From: a virus
Direction: 5' to 3' (one strand)
Virus record (IMG/VR): IMGVR_UViG_3300034073_001576
Location: 1 to 34,571 of that record
DNA: 34,571 nucleotides
Shown piece by piece: positions 1,941 through 29,301 of the stretch. How positions within the stretch are numbered: the stretch's first letter is position 1; every line of letters starts with the position of its first letter. A program made the translations under genes and the position numbers. Under the pieces are notes generated by a model. The model was not told where the DNA came from. It worked only from the letters and a program-made list of their open reading frames with translations, and did no database searches.

Positions 1941-4533
1941 GTTAGGCAATGTCGAAACAAAGGCGCAGCAAGGGGGTAAGAATCTAACAAAGTCATTTGA
2001 CAGTGCCAATACTGGCGTTAATAAACTATCTGCCAATCTTAAAAACTTAGTAGGTGCGCTTGGCCTTGCGTTTGGTGCGCAAGAGGTTATTAAGTTTACC
2101 AAGCAGACCATTGATGCGGCATCCGACCTTAACGAAACCGTAAGCAAAAGTCAGCAGATATTCGGCACAGCAAGCAAATCGGTTGAGCAGTTTGCCAGCA
2201 ATTCTGCCAAGCAGTTCGGCATGAGCAAGAAAACCGCCATTGATGCTGCGGCTTCGTTTGGCGCATTTGGTAAGGCCGCTGGATTGACTGGGGAGGATTT
2301 GGGAACATTCAGCACCGACCTTGTGGCATTGTCTGCCGACCTTGCATCGTTTGGCAATACAACACCAGAAGAAGCAGCATTGGCATTGGGAGCAGCTTTG
2401 AGGGGTGAGGCGGAGCCTATTCGCAAGTTTGGTGTTTTGCTTGACGAAGCCACATTGAAACAAGAGGCTTTAGCTATGGGTATTATCACCAATACCAAAA
2501 GCGCATTAACACCACAGCAAAAAGTATTAGCGGCCAATGCTGCTATCTTAAAACAAACGGCAGATGCCCAAGGTGATTTCGCAAGGACTTCGGATGGTGC
2601 TGCCAACCAACAGCGCATTATGTCTGCAACGCTTGAAGATGTTCAGGCAAAACTTGGTGAGAAACTTTTGCCAGCGTTTCAGCAAGGCATTCAAACCTTA
2701 AACGAATTCGTTGCCAATGCGGATTGGGATAGTATTTTTGGCGGCCTTGAAGAAGTTATTAATGATGTTGCCGAGCCTTGGGGGGAGTTCTTTGATGCTA
2801 TTGGTGATGTATATCGTGCATTAACTGCTGGCCTAAGCACAGGAGAAAAGACCGCTGGCATTTTCGATGCAATTAAGGTTAGCGTAAATCTTGGGTTGAT
2901 ACCGATTAAACTGCTTTCTAAATGGCTTCGGTTGGTTGTTGACAATGGCATTATCCCATTAATAAACGCTGGGAAAAATGTAATTAGTTGGTTCAATGAA
3001 GTTCGTGAAAGTGGGGGTTTTGTTGGTGCTGTATTTAACGGCATCGCATCTGCCGCCGGTTCTGTTGTAGATAAGTTGGTAGGTGTTGCTGAGTTTATTG
3101 GTTTGGTAGATACCGCAGAAGAAAAGGCTGCAAAGAACAAGGCAAAGGCTGAAAAAGCAAAGCAGAAAGCTGCAGAAGAAACTGCTAAGTTTGAAGAGGC
3201 AAAGAACAAAGAAAAGGCCGCTGCCAATACTGCTGCCATTGAAAAAGAAAAGGCCGATGCTGCCGCTTCTGCTGCTGCCGCCAAAGAACGTGCCAAGAAG
3301 ATTCTTGAAATCAATGCCCAGTTCAACAAAGAAATGATGTCGCTGGCCGATGAACTTACTTTGATGATGATTGCTGATGAAGATGAAAGGGGGCGCAAAC
3401 AACTTGAAATCCAAAAGCAAAACGACCTTGCTTCTGTTGAGGCGGCAGAGTTCAGCGCAGAACAGAAGGGGCAACTAAAGGCCAAGATTGAGGATAAGTA
3501 CAACCAGTTAGAACTAACAAGGCAGCAAGCGCAGAACGAAAAGTTAAAAAAGGCCGAAGAGGACTATCAGCGTTTTCTTGAAGAACAAGGGCTGCAGTCA
3601 GAAGAGGCGGCAAAGGCGGCAGAAGACCGCAAGTATTCGGCCTACCTTGAATTGTGGCAGATGCGCCAAGAGAATGAACTGCTTGGCATTGAAAACGAAA
3701 GGGAGCGCAAGCTGCGTGAACTTGAAATTTTTGAACAAAACGAGATTGCCAAGGTTGAAGCTTCGGAGTTCGCTGCCGAAATGATTGCTGAGATTCAAAA
3801 GAAATATGCGGCCAAAAGGGTTGAAATTGAAAAGCAAACGCAGCAACAAACAAACATAGCGGCTGCTGATGGCATTTCTCAGCTTTCAAGTGGATTCGGC
3901 CAAATGGTTGGGGCATTTGCGCAGATAAGCGGTGAGAGTGCAGAATATACCAAAGCATTGGCTGTTATTGGTGTTCAAATACAACTTGCATCTTCGCTTG
4001 CTGCCGCTATTGCTGGGGCTACTGCCGCTGCTGCTGCAACTGGGCCAGGCGCACCGTTTGCATTGGCTGGCTATATTGCCGCAATGGTTGGGGCGGTTGT
4101 GAGTGCATTCGCACAAACAACACAATTGCTATCTGCCGAAGTTCCAAAGCCGGGGTTCTATGACGGCACACCTTACCTTCAAAGGGGAGGTAACCCAAAG
4201 GGGAAGGACACCATCCCAGTAATGGCACACGAAGGTGAGGCAATTATCCCAACACGAAACAATTTGCAATATCCGGGTCTTGCAAAATCGTGGATTGACG
4301 GCAACCTTGACGGCTATATCAATAACAACTTTGTGCGGCCAGCATTGATTGAGCAACAGCGGCAGGCAGAAGAAGATTTTGCCGACCGCTTGGCGAGTTC
4401 AATGGCATTGCAGATGTCAAGTAACTTCGATGACTACCGATTGCATCGTGATTTAAAAGAACAAACTGCCGTTCTTAGATTCGGCTTTGAAACCATGAAA
4501 ATTAACCGCAAAAAAATAAGAGGTGGAAGGTAA
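1861..4533 (+). CDS. Tail tape measure protein, 890 aa
   Basis: The tape measure sets tail length and is packed inside the tail tube. The N-terminal part is a charged coiled coil, followed from about residue 84 by a typical tape-measure core (ASDLNETVSKSQQIFG, the FGAFGKAAGL region, ALGAALRGEAEPIRKFGV). Residues about 418-665 are long Ala/Lys/Glu coiled coils. Residues about 698-757 are strongly hydrophobic, with an Ala/Gly stretch suited to membrane insertion. A C-terminal GKDTIPVMAHEGEAIIP motif near residue 780 is the hallmark GxDTVPAxLxPGEfvv box. Long minus-strand frames in this gene are codon-bias shadows. It overlaps the next gene by 11 bases. Confidence 0.93.
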   Translation: MAIDKIVLEFQAETTKLKKELDDLKSRLGNVETKAQQGGKNLTKSFDSANTGVNKLSANLKNLVGALGLAFGAQEVIKFTKQTIDAASDLNETVSKSQQIFGTASKSVEQFASNSAKQFGMSKKTAIDAAASFGAFGKAAGLTGEDLGTFSTDLVALSADLASFGNTTPEEAALALGAALRGEAEPIRKFGVLLDEATLKQEALAMGIITNTKSALTPQQKVLAANAAILKQTADAQGDFARTSDGAANQQRIMSATLEDVQAKLGEKLLPAFQQGIQTLNEFVANADWDSIFGGLEEVINDVAEPWGEFFDAIGDVYRALTAGLSTGEKTAGIFDAIKVSVNLGLIPIKLLSKWLRLVVDNGIIPLINAGKNVISWFNEVRESGGFVGAVFNGIASAAGSVVDKLVGVAEFIGLVDTAEEKAAKNKAKAEKAKQKAAEETAKFEEAKNKEKAAANTAAIEKEKADAAASAAAAKERAKKILEINAQFNKEMMSLADELTLMMIADEDERGRKQLEIQKQNDLASVEAAEFSAEQKGQLKAKIEDKYNQLELTRQQAQNEKLKKAEEDYQRFLEEQGLQSEEAAKAAEDRKYSAYLELWQMRQENELLGIENERERKLRELEIFEQNEIAKVEASEFAAEMIAEIQKKYAAKRVEIEKQTQQQTNIAAADGISQLSSGFGQMVGAFAQISGESAEYTKALAVIGVQIQLASSLAAAIAGATAAAAATGPGAPFALAGYIAAMVGAVVSAFAQTTQLLSAEVPKPGFYDGTPYLQRGGNPKGKDTIPVMAHEGEAIIPTRNNLQYPGLAKSWIDGNLDGYINNNFVRPALIEQQRQAEEDFADRLASSMALQMSSNFDDYRLHRDLKEQTAVLRFGFETMKINRKKIRGGR

Positions 4534-6802
4534 CACGGCAATAGTAACGCTTAACAGCATCAACGTAACTGGCGATGCTATTGGTGTTGAAGACATCAAA
4601 GAACGCATTTACTGGGATGAAGAAGCCCGTGGGCTATTGTTCGACTTTGAGGGTGAAATAACCTTTACTGGGGACACCTACCGATTTTTGCAGCAGCGGT
4701 TTCGGGATGACTACGATACCCCTGTGCCATTGAACATCGTGGCTTACAACCCACATTCAGGCGCATTTGAAGCGGTTGTAAACGGGTTAATATTTACCAG
4801 CGATTGCGAGTTTAACCTATACGAAAAGACCGTATCGTGCCAAATCGTTGATAGGGGATTCTTTGCCAAGATCCGCAATAACGTAAACATTGGATTCAGC
4901 CTTGGCGCACCTGATAGCAAGTTGGGCGAAGACATCAGTTCTGCGGTTGCCATTACCGATGTTCAAGAAATAAGATTTATGAATCTGCCTGTGCCAATAA
5001 CGATACCGGGGTTTGGCCGCAAGTCAATGACAGCTTACGATGCCTTAAACTACCTTGTCGCTGCGATGAGTGACGGGCAGATTGGCTTTGTATCGAATTA
5101 TCTAACCCCTGTTGTTGGACAAGAAACGGCCCATATTTTAAGCGGTAGGCAGTTGAGGGGTGATGCTATTGATATCGGCCCTGTAGTTTCGTGGAATGAG
5201 TTGTTTGGGGACTTGTCCAAACTATACAACTTGGCCTTTGCCGTTGAAGAATACAACGTAGGCCAATGGCGAATTCGGGTTGAGCCTATTGATTACTTTC
5301 GGCAGTCGCAAAGCATTAACCTATTCGATGTGGATGCTGGGGTAACGGAGAGCATAGACACTTCGATGCTGTATGCTTCGGCCATTGTTGGCAGTTCGGA
5401 AACGAGGGAGGACTTTGATACACCGAGTTCTGTTCAAGCGGCGGCATTGGTAATGACCAACTGGAATTGGATTCCCAAAACACCGTTTATTTTTCAATGG
5501 CAAGAGGACTATTATTTTCAGTACAATTCAAACGTAGATAGCGAATGGGATTTGCGGTGTAGTGTTTTGATTACACACACCAACCTTATCTATTACGTGA
5601 TGTGCATGCGGTTTTTAAACACCCCCGGCAATCCCGATTTTGATGATAGCTACGATGAAGATGCTTTTTTGATTTCGTGCTTTTACAAGAACGCACCGGG
5701 CAATGTAAGCACACCAGTACTTAGTTCTGTTGGCACACCGCCGATATTCAATGTATTCAACAACAGCATCAGCAACTACAATGTAATGATTAGGAATGCG
5801 GATGGAGTGCCGGGTAATGCCGCCAGCCAATATGCAAGTTTTGGCCAGCAGTATTTCGATGCGTACTATGTGCCTGAATTTATAAACATCCCATACTCAA
5901 AATTATTAGCAAGGGATGAAATAAATCAATCGCCGGGGCCACCCAAAAGGATGTATCTTATATACAATTATTTTAGCGGTTCGCCTATTGGTGATTGGGC
6001 TTCAAATTTAACGCTTGCTGGCCCTGTGTTTGATGATTTGGTAGCACCAAACAATCTAAACTACTTGGCAATTACTGGGGAGTTTACCGATATAACTGTT
6101 AAGGGTAGCGACCCCAGCACAGGGTACAACATAAGCAATTCAACATGGGTTTGTCAAGTGCCAGCATTGTATTCTTTTAGAATTAAGGGGTCTATTTTCA
6201 TCAACTGGCTTTCAAATCTTGGATTTAGTTCATACACTACTTTTGAATTTATTATTGCGCAATGGGATTCATCTTTAATCGGGGTTAAAACGATAAAGAA
6301 AACAAGCCCGTTCTTTCGATTTAGCCAAACATCTGATGAAAGATATAGGGATTTTGATTTGTTTTTTGGCATGTTTAACGCAGATGCTGGCGATATATTT
6401 CAAATTCAATTGATTGCAACCGAGCCAACTGCGAACCAATATTTTCAAGTTTACCTAAGCGATGACACATTTTGGTCAATTGCGGGTAATTCATTAGAGG
6501 GCGAAGGTGGCACAATCTTGACTGCCGAAAAGGGCGGTTCATTTATGCTTACAAACCAATTGAAAGCGAATATCGATGCCGATTTGTGGAAGACAATTAA
6601 GGCTAACCCCTACCAAAAACTACTTTACCAAGTTACCGATGACGGTGAAAGCAGGTCAATGAACCTTTACGATTTTAACCGCAACATCATTTCGGGGGTT
6701 ACTGAGGGCGAAACAAGGGGCAGGTTGGCAGCACCTGAGCAGCCTGATGTTGACCCCGGCAACCCAATTACACCCGAACCTGAAGAAGGTGATGGCGGTT
6801 AA
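4523..6802 (+). CDS. Large tail/baseplate hub-like protein, 759 aa
   Basis: The only usable start is GTG 4523, inside the last codons of the tape measure gene; no in-frame ATG lies nearby. The sequence begins with beta-rich segments (ERIYWDEEARGLLFDFEGE, FLQQRFRDDYDTPVPLNIV) and a CQIVDRGFFAKI element. A middle part with an Asn/Tyr/Phe-rich beta pattern follows, and the acidic C-terminus is rich in Pro and Glu. The size, beta-rich composition and place right after the tape measure fit a distal tail, baseplate hub or tail-tip protein. No enzymatic motif was recognised. Confidence 0.65.
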   Translation: MEGNTAIVTLNSINVTGDAIGVEDIKERIYWDEEARGLLFDFEGEITFTGDTYRFLQQRFRDDYDTPVPLNIVAYNPHSGAFEAVVNGLIFTSDCEFNLYEKTVSCQIVDRGFFAKIRNNVNIGFSLGAPDSKLGEDISSAVAITDVQEIRFMNLPVPITIPGFGRKSMTAYDALNYLVAAMSDGQIGFVSNYLTPVVGQETAHILSGRQLRGDAIDIGPVVSWNELFGDLSKLYNLAFAVEEYNVGQWRIRVEPIDYFRQSQSINLFDVDAGVTESIDTSMLYASAIVGSSETREDFDTPSSVQAAALVMTNWNWIPKTPFIFQWQEDYYFQYNSNVDSEWDLRCSVLITHTNLIYYVMCMRFLNTPGNPDFDDSYDEDAFLISCFYKNAPGNVSTPVLSSVGTPPIFNVFNNSISNYNVMIRNADGVPGNAASQYASFGQQYFDAYYVPEFINIPYSKLLARDEINQSPGPPKRMYLIYNYFSGSPIGDWASNLTLAGPVFDDLVAPNNLNYLAITGEFTDITVKGSDPSTGYNISNSTWVCQVPALYSFRIKGSIFINWLSNLGFSSYTTFEFIIAQWDSSLIGVKTIKKTSPFFRFSQTSDERYRDFDLFFGMFNADAGDIFQIQLIATEPTANQYFQVYLSDDTFWSIAGNSLEGEGGTILTAEKGGSFMLTNQLKANIDADLWKTIKANPYQKLLYQVTDDGESRSMNLYDFNRNIISGVTEGETRGRLAAPEQPDVDPGNPITPEPEEGDGG

Positions 6803-20440: not shown

Positions 20441-20635
20441 ATGAAAATCACCCTAATCGAATCGCCACTTGTTGGCGGTAGCAAAATCCAAATCATCGGC
20501 AAGCCCGACAAAGGTCGCCCGATACTATTCGCCACATTCAGGTCGCAGCCGCCGTTGATACCCAGCGAAATGGTAATGCGCCAAGCAAACATCGTTCTTT
20601 CTAATTTAATCACCTTTTACAAACAAAACCAATGA
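20441..20635 (+). CDS. Small hypothetical protein, first gene of early operon, 64 aa
   Basis: Start ATG 20441 lies 21 bases after the -7 element; an in-frame ATG at 20417 overlaps the -7 element itself. The product (ITLIESPLVGGSKIQIIGK, then MVMRQANIVLSNLITFY) is small, with a strand-loop start and a C-terminal helix. It overlaps the next start (ATGA). It is expressed first in the operon, a place often used for host-takeover or regulatory proteins, but nothing in the sequence shows a function. Confidence 0.65.
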   Translation: MKITLIESPLVGGSKIQIIGKPDKGRPILFATFRSQPPLIPSEMVMRQANIVLSNLITFYKQNQ

Positions 20636-21177
20636 CACTTAAAGAACTTTTAATCAAATTAGACGCTTGCAAAGAAGCAAGAGAATGGGCAAGAGATATG
20701 CCTATCGAAGAAATAGTTTCAACCTGCCACCGAGGTGATTGGTTGCTTTGGCTTGCCCAAAAAGTTGATGTAGATTTACGCCTTCGCACGTTGGCGAAAG
20801 GGCATTGTGCAAACACCGTTAGGCACTTAATGACAGACGAGCGAAGCATAAACGCTGTTGATGTGGCTATTGCGTTTGGTGAAGGTAAGGCTACACGTGA
20901 AGAGTTAGATGCTGCTGCTTATGCTGCTTATGCTGCTGCTGTTGCTGCTGCTGCTGATGCTGCTTATGCTGCTTATGCTGCTGATGCTGCTTATGCTGCC
21001 GCTGCTGCTTATGCTTATGCTTATGCTTATGCTTCTGTTGATGCTGCTGCTGCTGCTGCTGCTGCTCGTGCTTCTGCTGCTGCTGATGCCGCCAACCGCC
21101 AACAAGCCGCCGACATCTGCCGCCAGTATATCGGTGAAGCTTTAATCGAAAAAGTAAATCAATTATTAACCAAGTAA
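20632..21177 (+). CDS. GDW-type protein with Ala/Tyr repeat region, 181 aa
   Basis: Residues 1-90 form a globular domain (CKEAREWARDMPIEE, HRGDWLLWLAQK, LAKGHCANTVRHLMTDERS, AIAFGEGKATREELDAA) that I recall from a widespread phage/bacterial family ending in Ala-rich repeats. Residues about 92-150 are almost only Ala, Tyr and Asp, made from GCT and TAT/GAT codons. A helical C-terminus (ADICRQYIGEALIEKVNQLL) follows. The repeat would form an amphipathic or antifreeze-like helix. Function is unknown; some relatives are labelled immunity-like, which I cannot support here. Confidence 0.7.
   Translation: MTLKELLIKLDACKEAREWARDMPIEEIVSTCHRGDWLLWLAQKVDVDLRLRTLAKGHCANTVRHLMTDERSINAVDVAIAFGEGKATREELDAAAYAAYAAAVAAAADAAYAAYAADAAYAAAAAYAYAYAYASVDAAAAAAAARASAAADAANRQQAADICRQYIGEALIEKVNQLLTK
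20909..21090 (+). repeat. GCT/TAT triplet repeat tract in the Ala/Tyr gene
   Basis: Nearly uninterrupted GCT codons with TAT and GAT interspersed, including a tandem GCTTAT run near 21005-21033. All units are multiples of three, so length changes would alter the protein without shifting frame. The other frames give meaningless poly-Leu, poly-Ser and poly-Gln readings. Confidence 0.85.
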
Positions 21178-25570: not shown

Positions 25571-26851
25571 ATGCAAAATTTAAGCATTAACCCTGAACTA
25601 AAAGCGTTAATCCCACCATTAACAAGTGAGGAGTTTGCGCAGCTTCAAACCAACGTACTTGCCGAAGGTATTCGGGAGCCAATCATTACATGGCAAGGCA
25701 CAATCGTAGATGGCCACAACCGATACGAACTGGCACAAATGTATGATTTGCCTTTTAAGGTTAAGGAGATGGTCTTTACTTCAATGAACCATGCCAAGAA
25801 ATGGATGGCCGAAAATCAACTTGGTAGAAGAAACCTGACTGAATACGTAAAAGGCGAATTGATTGCCGTTATTGAAGATTGCATTAGGGATATTGGTAAA
25901 GAAAAATATGCCGAAACTGTTGGTAGGCCACAAAAAGAATCGTTATCAATAATTGATAACGAATTAAAACACAATACCCAAAAAATAGTGGCCGAAAAAC
26001 TTGGATGGAGTACAGGCAAAAAGGCCATGTTTGATGTGGTAAAAAAGAAAGCCCCCGAAGAAATTAAAGAAAAGCTACGGCAGGGGGATGTAAGCATCAA
26101 CCAAGTTTACCAAGACATTAAGAAAGAGGAGAAAAAGGCCCAAATGCTTGAAAAAATACAGCAGCAAAAGGTTGAAATTGAAATTAGTGAAAACATAAAA
26201 AACGGGGATTCGCTTGAAATACTTGAAAGCCTTGAGGACGGTTGCATTGATATTGTTCTAACCGATCCTCCGTACGGCATTTCTTACGTTTCAAATCGTT
26301 CAATGTATGATGAAACCATAACCAAAAGGGGGTTGCTTAATGATGGCAAAGATGAGGCCTTTGAATTGCTGGATAAAACTTGCGAAATACTAAGCCGAAA
26401 AGCAGCCGAAAATTCGCACCTTTATTTCTTTTGCAGCTGGGCAGTATTTTCTTCTTTTGAGGCCATAATTTCAAAGTATTTCACCATCAAAACCCCTATT
26501 GTATGGGACAAAGGCAATAAGGGAAGTGGTGACCTTGAGAATGACTGGGGAAACCAAACCGAAATAGTTATTTTTTGCGTAAAGGGAAAGAAACTTGTAA
26601 ACACAAGAAAAGGAAATTTGCTATTTGTACCAAGGATTCACACAACCAAAATGGTGCATCCAACCCAAAAGCCTACCGAACTTCTTAGAATGATATTGGA
26701 TGTAAGTTATAGGGATGGGGACTTTGTTGTTGACCCGTTCATGGGTTCAGGTTCAACCATAAAAGCATGCAAAGAAATTAACGCTAAATGCTTGGGTATT
26801 GAATTGGATGCAGAAATGTTTAATATTGCAAACAACTTCATCAATGAATAA
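25571..26851 (+). CDS. ParB-domain fused to N6-adenine/N4-cytosine DNA methyltransferase, 426 aa
   Basis: Residues about 1-110 are ParB/Spo0J-like (GIREPIITWQGTIVDGHNRY, AENQLGRRNLT). A helical linker (GDVSINQVYQDIKKEEKKAQ) follows. From about 205 comes a beta-class methyltransferase: DIVLTDPPYGISY with DPPY at about 232-235, VWDKGN, HPTQKPTELL, and a final VVDPFMGSGSTIKA with the SAM-binding FMGSGS near 390. It likely methylates phage DNA to escape restriction; the target is unknown. It overlaps a small downstream gene by 8 bases, and no cognate endonuclease is proven. Confidence 0.83.
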   Translation: MQNLSINPELKALIPPLTSEEFAQLQTNVLAEGIREPIITWQGTIVDGHNRYELAQMYDLPFKVKEMVFTSMNHAKKWMAENQLGRRNLTEYVKGELIAVIEDCIRDIGKEKYAETVGRPQKESLSIIDNELKHNTQKIVAEKLGWSTGKKAMFDVVKKKAPEEIKEKLRQGDVSINQVYQDIKKEEKKAQMLEKIQQQKVEIEISENIKNGDSLEILESLEDGCIDIVLTDPPYGISYVSNRSMYDETITKRGLLNDGKDEAFELLDKTCEILSRKAAENSHLYFFCSWAVFSSFEAIISKYFTIKTPIVWDKGNKGSGDLENDWGNQTEIVIFCVKGKKLVNTRKGNLLFVPRIHTTKMVHPTQKPTELLRMILDVSYRDGDFVVDPFMGSGSTIKACKEINAKCLGIELDAEMFNIANNFINE

Positions 26852-28116: not shown

Positions 28117-29301
28117 ATGAAACACGGTTCTTTATTCAGTGGGATTGGCGGATTCGACCTTGCAGCCGAATGGGCAGGGTGGGAAAATATGTTTCATTGT
28201 GAATGGAATTTATTCGGACAAAAAGTTCTTAAACACTACTGGCCTAACGCAGCAACCTATGAAGACATTACAAAAACAGATTTCACTATTTGGCGAGGAA
28301 GAATTGACATCCTCACGGGCGGATTTCCCTGCCAACCGTACAGCGCAGCCGGAAAGCGGCTTGGAAAAGAAGATGAACGCCATTTATGGCCCGAAATGCT
28401 TAGAACAATACGGGAAATTCAGCCACGTTGGGTCGTGGGCGAAAATGTTCTCGGCCTTGTTAATTGGAACGGGGGATTGGTATTCGAGGAGGTGCAAGCT
28501 GACTTGGAAGCTGAAGGGTACGAAGTACAACCGTTTATACTTCCAGCTGCAAGCGTCAACGCTCCCCACAAACGGGACCGGGTTTGGTTTGTTGCCTACA
28601 AAAATGCTCCCAACACCGACCACAATGGATATGCTACCGCCGAAAACGGACAAGGCTTGGGAGAAGGAAATGACCGAAACAAGACCGGGGAGAACGATGC
28701 CATCGAATTTGAGGGACGTGCCGTTTCGGACGGGGTTGCTGAAAACACCCAGCGCAATGGACGCATACAGCGAGAACCTGAGCAAGAAGGAGCAGAAATT
28801 CGGGAACAGCGGAACGCTTGCTCAGGAGATTCAATCGGGGTTTGTGGAGAAAAGGTGGCCGGGCCTACTACCGACACCGACAATGTACGATTACAACAGT
28901 GCAAGACATCCGGAACTTTGGGAGAAGGACAAGAAGAAATATGCGGACAAGGGCATAAACCTTCAATGCGGACTCAAACAAATGAATGTTTTGGGGATGC
29001 TACCGACACCGAGAGCAAGGGCAGCTGGGGGGAATTGCAGCAACGACAGGGGGAAGGGCAATTTGGAAGACAAAATAGCAGAAATGAACACATCCCAAAC
29101 TGGGACAACTTCCCAACTCAATCCCCAATTTGTTCTCGAAATGATGGGCTTCCCACCGAACTGGACGGAATTACCTTTTCTAAGTGGCGAAACGAATCAA
29201 TCAAGGCCGGGGGAAACGCAATCGTGCCCCAAGTAGTTTACCAAATCTTCAAAGCAATAAACGAATATGAAAACCTACACACTAACCGAAACAACCCTTG
29301 A
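28117..29301 (+). CDS. dcm: C5-cytosine DNA methyltransferase (Dcm-like), 394 aa
   Basis: Motif I GSLFSGIGGFDLAA at residues 4-17, catalytic motif IV GGFPCQPYS near 68-76 (Cys near 72), motif VI GENV near 108-111, motif VIII NAPHKRDRVWF near 148-158, and C-terminal RNESIKAGGNAIVPQVV near 360-376. Residues 165-335 are Asn/Asp/Gly/Gln-rich, lacking conserved motifs, and occupy the target-recognition region. It likely protects phage DNA; the target is not deducible. A second protein-like frame covers nearly the whole gene. It overlaps the helicase-loader start by 35 bases. Confidence 0.88.
   Translation: MKHGSLFSGIGGFDLAAEWAGWENMFHCEWNLFGQKVLKHYWPNAATYEDITKTDFTIWRGRIDILTGGFPCQPYSAAGKRLGKEDERHLWPEMLRTIREIQPRWVVGENVLGLVNWNGGLVFEEVQADLEAEGYEVQPFILPAASVNAPHKRDRVWFVAYKNAPNTDHNGYATAENGQGLGEGNDRNKTGENDAIEFEGRAVSDGVAENTQRNGRIQREPEQEGAEIREQRNACSGDSIGVCGEKVAGPTTDTDNVRLQQCKTSGTLGEGQEEICGQGHKPSMRTQTNECFGDATDTESKGSWGELQQRQGEGQFGRQNSRNEHIPNWDNFPTQSPICSRNDGLPTELDGITFSKWRNESIKAGGNAIVPQVVYQIFKAINEYENLHTNRNNP
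28259..29236 (+). CDS. Overlapping-frame protein nested in the Dcm gene, about 325 aa from ATG 28259
   Basis: The +1 frame relative to the Dcm gene is open from 28121 to the stop at 29236 (365 residues if started at GTG 28139; other starts at ATG 28259 and 28373). It reads as protein: IYGPKCLEQYGKFSHVGSW, DWYSRRCKLTWKLKGTKYNR, LYFQLQASTLPTNGTGFG, repeated LLPTPT-type turns, and a C-terminal FVLEMMGFPPNWTELPFLSG. I recall these motifs in proteins annotated with phage cytosine methyltransferases, where they seem to follow or overlap Dcm. Start and expression are unknown; it may be a specificity or partner protein. If not translated, it is a remarkable conserved shadow. Confidence 0.6.
   Translation: MKTLQKQISLFGEEELTSSRADFPANRTAQPESGLEKKMNAIYGPKCLEQYGKFSHVGSWAKMFSALLIGTGDWYSRRCKLTWKLKGTKYNRLYFQLQASTLPTNGTGFGLLPTKMLPTPTTMDMLPPKTDKAWEKEMTETRPGRTMPSNLRDVPFRTGLLKTPSAMDAYSENLSKKEQKFGNSGTLAQEIQSGFVEKRWPGLLPTPTMYDYNSARHPELWEKDKKKYADKGINLQCGLKQMNVLGMLPTPRARAAGGNCSNDRGKGNLEDKIAEMNTSQTGTTSQLNPQFVLEMMGFPPNWTELPFLSGETNQSRPGETQSCPK

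Follow-up and report, generated by a model that had tools for sequence, protein, structure and literature searches.

The question raised by this locus is whether a methyltransferase gene that stays open in a second frame encodes one protein or two and, if two, what the second one does. The window analysed is the whole of IMG/VR virus record IMGVR_UViG_3300034073_001576 (34,571 bases). It contains the gene of a cytosine-C5 DNA methyltransferase of the Dcm type, here called F1, of 394 amino acids (28117–29301; PF00145, 3.8e-46; phrog_363, 1.8e-71) and, wholly within it in the +1 frame, a second protein of 325 amino acids, here called F2 (28259–29236), which is supported by a profile match to phrog_1008 (1e-26) and by selection tests. 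F1, F2 and all their parts are on the plus strand. An earlier note on this DNA had described the +1 frame as open from 28121 to a stop ending at 29236, which is exactly the case, and the peptides that it quoted from this frame are present, with LPTPT repeats at about 28607, 28868 and 29000. The first 45 or so codons of the open frame (28121–28258) are open merely by accident, as relatives carry stops there.

Concerning the start of F2, the ATG of the window is at 28259–28261 (F1 codon 47). Among relatives, the start is a conserved ATG at F1 codon 47, 48 or 58, the F2 frame is closed by stops upstream of about F1 codon 46 in most cases, and an in-frame TAG lies directly 5′ of the ATG in 8/8 E. 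coli/Salmonella phages. The closed upstream frame, the conserved ATG and the TAG-ATG arrangement together lead to the conclusion that F2 has a start of its own. In the window, no Shine-Dalgarno site could be made out; its absence is usual for Bacteroidetes.

The openness of the +1 frame was compared with that of synonymous shuffles of F1. The 371-codon frame was expected to contain 7.8 stops and was open in none of 20,000 shuffles; counted from the ATG at 28259, there were 6.8 stops on average and a single open frame in 20,000. The procedure can be taken as unbiased, because stops in the control frame, +2, occurred at the expected rate in 72 relatives (18.3 versus 18.7 expected). To avoid choosing loci by F2, relatives were also picked by a search with F1 alone, and in all the 62 distinct loci so obtained F2 was uninterrupted as far as the MGFP box at its end. 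As pairs of relatives are not independent of each other, reliance was placed on the bootstrap and on categorical counts. The divergence at fourfold sites of F1 was 0.673 before the F2 start, 0.467 in the catalytic overlap, 0.324 in the C-terminal overlap and 0.537 past the F2 end, with a ratio of core overlap to upstream of 0.70 (bootstrap 0.65–0.74). Under the MGFP box, Asp343 and Gly344 of F1 were encoded by GAT and GGG, respectively, in 72/72 relatives, the share of GGG among upstream F1 glycine codons being 12%; in motif X, directly after the box, the F1 codons of the 72 relatives varied freely. Identity in the F2 frame, relative to the prediction from F1 and codon usage, was 1.24, 1.68 and 1.91 in three overlap segments, and 1.04 in the upstream control.

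The middle of the gene (28612–29106) was studied in 357 ungapped blocks comprising 13,168 codons. The differences at F1 codon positions 1, 2 and 3 amounted to 0.350, 0.096 and 0.058, respectively, so that the freest position was the first of F1, which is the wobble position of F2; identity was 0.91 for F2 and 0.60 for F1. The middle of the E. coli clade gave the same picture, with phase differences of 0.285, 0.050 and 0.029, and identities of 0.93 (F2) and 0.71 (F1). It was correct, as noted earlier, that LPTPT and the NTD/DTD stretches of F1 arise from the same bases: LPTPT, with the LPTP invariant and its wobble free among relatives, is the selected reading, and NTD/DTD is its shadow. Despite the unconserved amino acids, F1 was free of stops in the middle (0 observed versus 226 expected, in 67 loci), and a wobble T of F2 before AA, AG or GA occurred in 0/2263 cases in the middle versus 976/5080 elsewhere. 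F2 is thus the conserved protein of the middle, where F1 is a spacer with residues selectively free and yet kept open. Since F1 is never stopped there, it is presumably translated through to motif X, and its being read through to motif X argues for two separate full-length proteins and for no frameshift product. Constraint is shared out along one DNA stretch, F1 ruling the first part, F2 the middle and both of them the MGFP box, which makes the locus a clear case in which to study how two proteins divide constraint.

Relatives of F2 were found encoded on 539 viral contigs, in 80 of which the register was always the same, +1 within dcm, and 220 phage records were obtained with the F2 of a distant E. 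coli phage as the query. They belong to phages of Enterobacteria, Pseudomonas, Xanthomonas, Rhodobacter, cyanobacteria, Firmicutes and Bacteroidetes. F2 spans the dcm gene in 14 phage loci, including those of Enterobacteria, Xanthomonas, Pseudomonas, Rhodobacter, Erwinia, cyanobacteria, Lacticaseibacillus and Paenibacillus. A set of 80 distant loci was collected with a diverse F2 profile; the catalytic motif of F1 was recognised in 66 and not, by a simple pattern, in the other 14. This motif was at +1 and within F2 in 65 of the 66. As for motif X, 78 of the 80 loci had it in the F1 frame, with a constant spacing from the F2 box in most cases, and no F2 apart from dcm was found among the 80. 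The idea of genuine dual coding, put forward in the earlier note, is thus borne out by the openness of the frame, by the homologues of F2, by its lack of interruption in F1-selected relatives and by the suppressed synonymous variation of F1 (divergence of 0.467 over the overlap and of 0.673 before it); judging from these comparisons, dual coding is almost certain, with both frames under purifying selection.

With respect to its motif content, F1 was less complete than the earlier note had it. The catalytic core (28117–28611), which aligns with residues 16–177 of M.HhaI, contains motifs I–VIII, with the SAM-binding motif I, PCQ (28327–28335), ENV and motif VIII being recognised in the PF00145 match and in the M.HhaI alignment, and motif X is present as AGGNAIVPQ (29206–29232) in the translation. 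Nevertheless, there was no match of F1 to M.HhaI past residue 177, and neither motif IX nor a target-recognition domain could be recognised, so the statement that frame 1 has all the C5-methyltransferase motifs holds for I–VIII and X only. In host genomes, several methyltransferases matched PF00145 over its full length, and many others only to about position 175.

The layout of F2 consists of a conserved N-terminal part with LTWK (28499–28510, kept in distant members in three alignments), two to five LPTP modules, and an LNPxxVxxMMGFPxxW box. Module analysis of the window gave module 1 (LLPTKMLPTPTTMD..., 28589–28735), module 2 (LLKTPSAMDAYSENL..., 28736–28864; the same module in 28 loci), module 3 (LLPTPTMYDYNSARH..., 28865–28996; in 4 loci) and module 4 (MLPTPRARAAGGNCSNDRGKGNLED..., 28997–29116; in 14 loci). 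Modules recur among loci at differing positions and in differing numbers (2–5). The box, LNPxxVxxMMGFPxxWTELPF in full (29117–29179), shares its bases with the ...NDGLP... of F1, where the frozen codons are located, and may be described as motif IX-like: in the best alignment of the F2 profile to ordinary enzymes it falls on motif IX, in register, a weak match with E = 0.04, for which 2 of 100 shuffled profiles scored higher. The invariant residues of F2 are W, L, G, P and M, and its alignments contain no invariant acid, His or Cys, nor any other likely catalytic residue. F2 gave no match to Pfam, NCBIfam or PDB sequences; a match to SANTA (E 0.1) was rejected as due to chance. AlphaFold2 models run with two alignments were of low confidence (mean pLDDT 59 and 63), and no match to the PDB was obtained for the F2 model with Foldseek.

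It seems reasonable to interpret that F1 and F2 form one split cytosine-C5 methyltransferase, with F2 giving motif IX and target recognition in trans, and we put the probability of this reading at roughly two in three. We infer the partnership because F1 has neither motif IX nor a conserved target-recognition region, because its catalytic motif is at +1 inside nearly all the distant F2s, because no F2 residue hints at an enzyme activity of its own, and because the LPTP modules vary in number and position like specificity modules. A further reason is given by three loci (L108, L148 and L208), where F1 ends past motif VIII and the MGFP box of F2 is followed, in its own frame, by motif X; the weak, in-register alignment of the box with motif IX points in the same direction. 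The suggestion of the earlier note, a Dcm and its partner, stands as to the Dcm type of F1 and, as to the partnership, fits the evidence. F1 would be the large catalytic domain (motifs I–VIII and X), and F2 would complete the fold as the small domain, composed of motif IX and swappable target-recognition modules. A single transcript would serve for both chains, with F2 initiated internally, and shuffling of the F2 modules would alter the methylated sequence, presumably evading host restriction. This proposal covers the modules and the box of F2, and not its N-terminal part. Should F2 be the specificity subunit, the annotated protein would not reveal what many phages methylate, and the swapping of modules would be a testable route for phages to dodge restriction.

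Partial precedents exist for such an arrangement. In M.EcoHK31I (E. coli, YGGCCR), the gene of the larger chain also encodes the smaller one, in another reading frame; at about 309 amino acids, the larger chain is similar in length to the F1 of E. coli phage K1ind2. The multispecific phage C5-methyltransferases of the SPR and phi3T type carry, on a single chain, target-recognition modules in tandem, each a few tens of residues long. The LPTP modules of F2 may be their counterparts, but those of SPR and phi3T are in frame with the catalytic core, whereas those of F2 are in +1. M.EcoHK31I is a two-polypeptide C5-methyltransferase with motifs I–VIII and X on the larger chain and only motif IX on the smaller one, its target-recognition domain being predicted in the larger subunit (PMC3404938). 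F1, like that larger chain, has motifs I–VIII and X and not IX. On the other hand, target recognition is placed here in F2, and the F1/F2 family is phage-borne, extends over many phyla and has its swappable modules arrayed in tandem in the hidden frame; the likeness to M.EcoHK31I drawn here is one of motif layout. M.AquI (alpha and beta) is likewise a C5-methyltransferase of two polypeptides, though split in line within the variable region, with motifs IX–X on the small subunit (PMC3404938), and, unlike the F1/F2 locus, it has no embedded +1 gene.

Among the alternatives to the split enzyme, the one that survives best is that F2 is a real overlapping protein with a role outside the methyltransferase, e.g., in anti-restriction or regulation, and merely carried in dcm. 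It is worth considering that dual coding needs no shared function, and that F2 yielded neither an annotated domain nor a confident predicted fold. This reading is, however, rather unlikely in view of the failure to find F2 apart from dcm in the 80 distant loci, of the absence from F1 of exactly the part that F2 could supply, and of the occurrence of motif X on either chain. A second alternative, that the functional enzyme is a frameshift fusion in which F1 passes into F2 past motif VIII, so that the core is joined to the modules, is improbable: F1 is kept open through the middle despite its free residues, the frame that holds motif X is that of F1, the start of F2 is conserved and its N-terminal part is constrained in its own right, and the ATG of F2 comes immediately after a TAG in the E. 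coli clade. Against these points, it can be said for the fusion that the frame switch would yield the canonical order of motifs I–VIII, target recognition, IX and X, and that the constraint on F1 ends where that on F2 takes over. Finally, the view that the F2 frame is open by chance, as a by-product of the codon usage of F1, which the bases shared by LPTPT and TDTD could suggest inasmuch as either might mirror the other, is already refuted by the shuffles (0/20,000 open), by frame +2 having stops as expected, by the better conservation of F2 in the middle and by the GGG found 72/72 times at one F1 glycine.

Regarding annotation, phrog_1008 is labelled 'DNA methyltransferase', a label that describes the surrounding gene F1 and not F2, which itself had no assigned function. 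F2 was recorded earlier by annotators in a few phages, without comment: it is gp50 ('g49 internal gene') of Paenibacillus phage Diva and ORF28 ('Mte8-like'), inside ORF29, of K1ind2, and it was annotated in place of F1 as FoX4 gp11, Cr-LKS3 g58 and phiEc4 QYU43883.1. A literature search for dual coding in phage methyltransferases found none, and the passages available from a paper on 48 P. larvae phages do not mention it. A common phage and prophage gene labelled simply dcm conceals a second conserved protein, undescribed in the domain libraries searched; annotation pipelines pick one frame or the other, and intact genes are sometimes flagged as broken. The prophage dcm of E. coli Ec1117 (L458, 2863–4032) is annotated as two incomplete pseudogenes, with F1 and F2 open throughout. 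Two further loci (L029 and L036) contain two tandem dcm genes, at about 2961–4217 and 4886–5755, with an F2 overlap in each.

Another observation concerns a sister clade in which F1 contains an in-frame stop. Among the matches listed, F1 has an insertion of exactly two codons that separates GGFP from the catalytic CQP; the first of the two is a stop in 41/41 distinct relatives (TAA in 28, TGA in 10 and TAG in 3), the second being CCN, TCN or CTN. The IMG/VR loci of this clade are L001/L088, L074/L110, L091, L094, L096, L097, L107, L108, L113, L115 and L144–L181, and F2 is open in nearly all of them. In 38 loci, F1 is constrained 3′ of the inserted stop as in ordinary genes, with no further stop nearby. 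Two variants of the insert were seen, one of 9 nt (CCA-TGA-TGG-TCA-TGC, L230) with the rest of F1 intact, and one of 7 nt (CCG-TGAA-CTG-TGC, L208) in which F1 ends early.

These features imply some kind of recoding at the F1 stop, as far as can be judged from the aligned loci. Selenocysteine was ruled out, because TAA and TAG occur besides TGA, and no suppressor tRNA was found in 11 contigs. A +1 shift into F2 at the stop is disfavoured by the absence of CCC before the stop (0/38 versus 88/252 in ordinary genes) and by a downstream F1 constraint like that of ordinary genes. The candidates are readthrough and a natural ribosome stop-hop. An in-frame hop from CCN to YYN over CCN-stop-YYN-TGY would restore GGFPCQP exactly; according to a review, a natural in-frame stop-hop is not known (PMC5009743). 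If such hopping did take place, the sister clade would be its first natural case, and the clade makes the long-standing question of natural stop-hopping testable. The broadest reading, which takes the family as a methyltransferase of tailed phages that is ancient and obligately encoded in overlapping frames, with catalysis and a stop-free spacer in the visible frame, all the specificity in the hidden modules, and a stop-hop at a selected stop in the sister clade, is tentative, and it is possible rather than probable that it holds in full.

Some minor observations may be added. In L107, L108, L113, L115, L091 and L145, an HNH/zinc-like segment, IQAHHxDYxxPLDVMWLCQKCHHEWHKNNKA, is present in the F1 frame just 5′ of IDILSGGFP. 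In the window, a ParB-like N-terminal part fused to an adenine-type methyltransferase (DPPYG) is found just upstream of F1 (25571–26851), as seen from the translation only, and a 181-aa ORF contains a long low-complexity stretch rich in Ala, Tyr and Asp (AAYAAYAADAAY..., 20632–21177).
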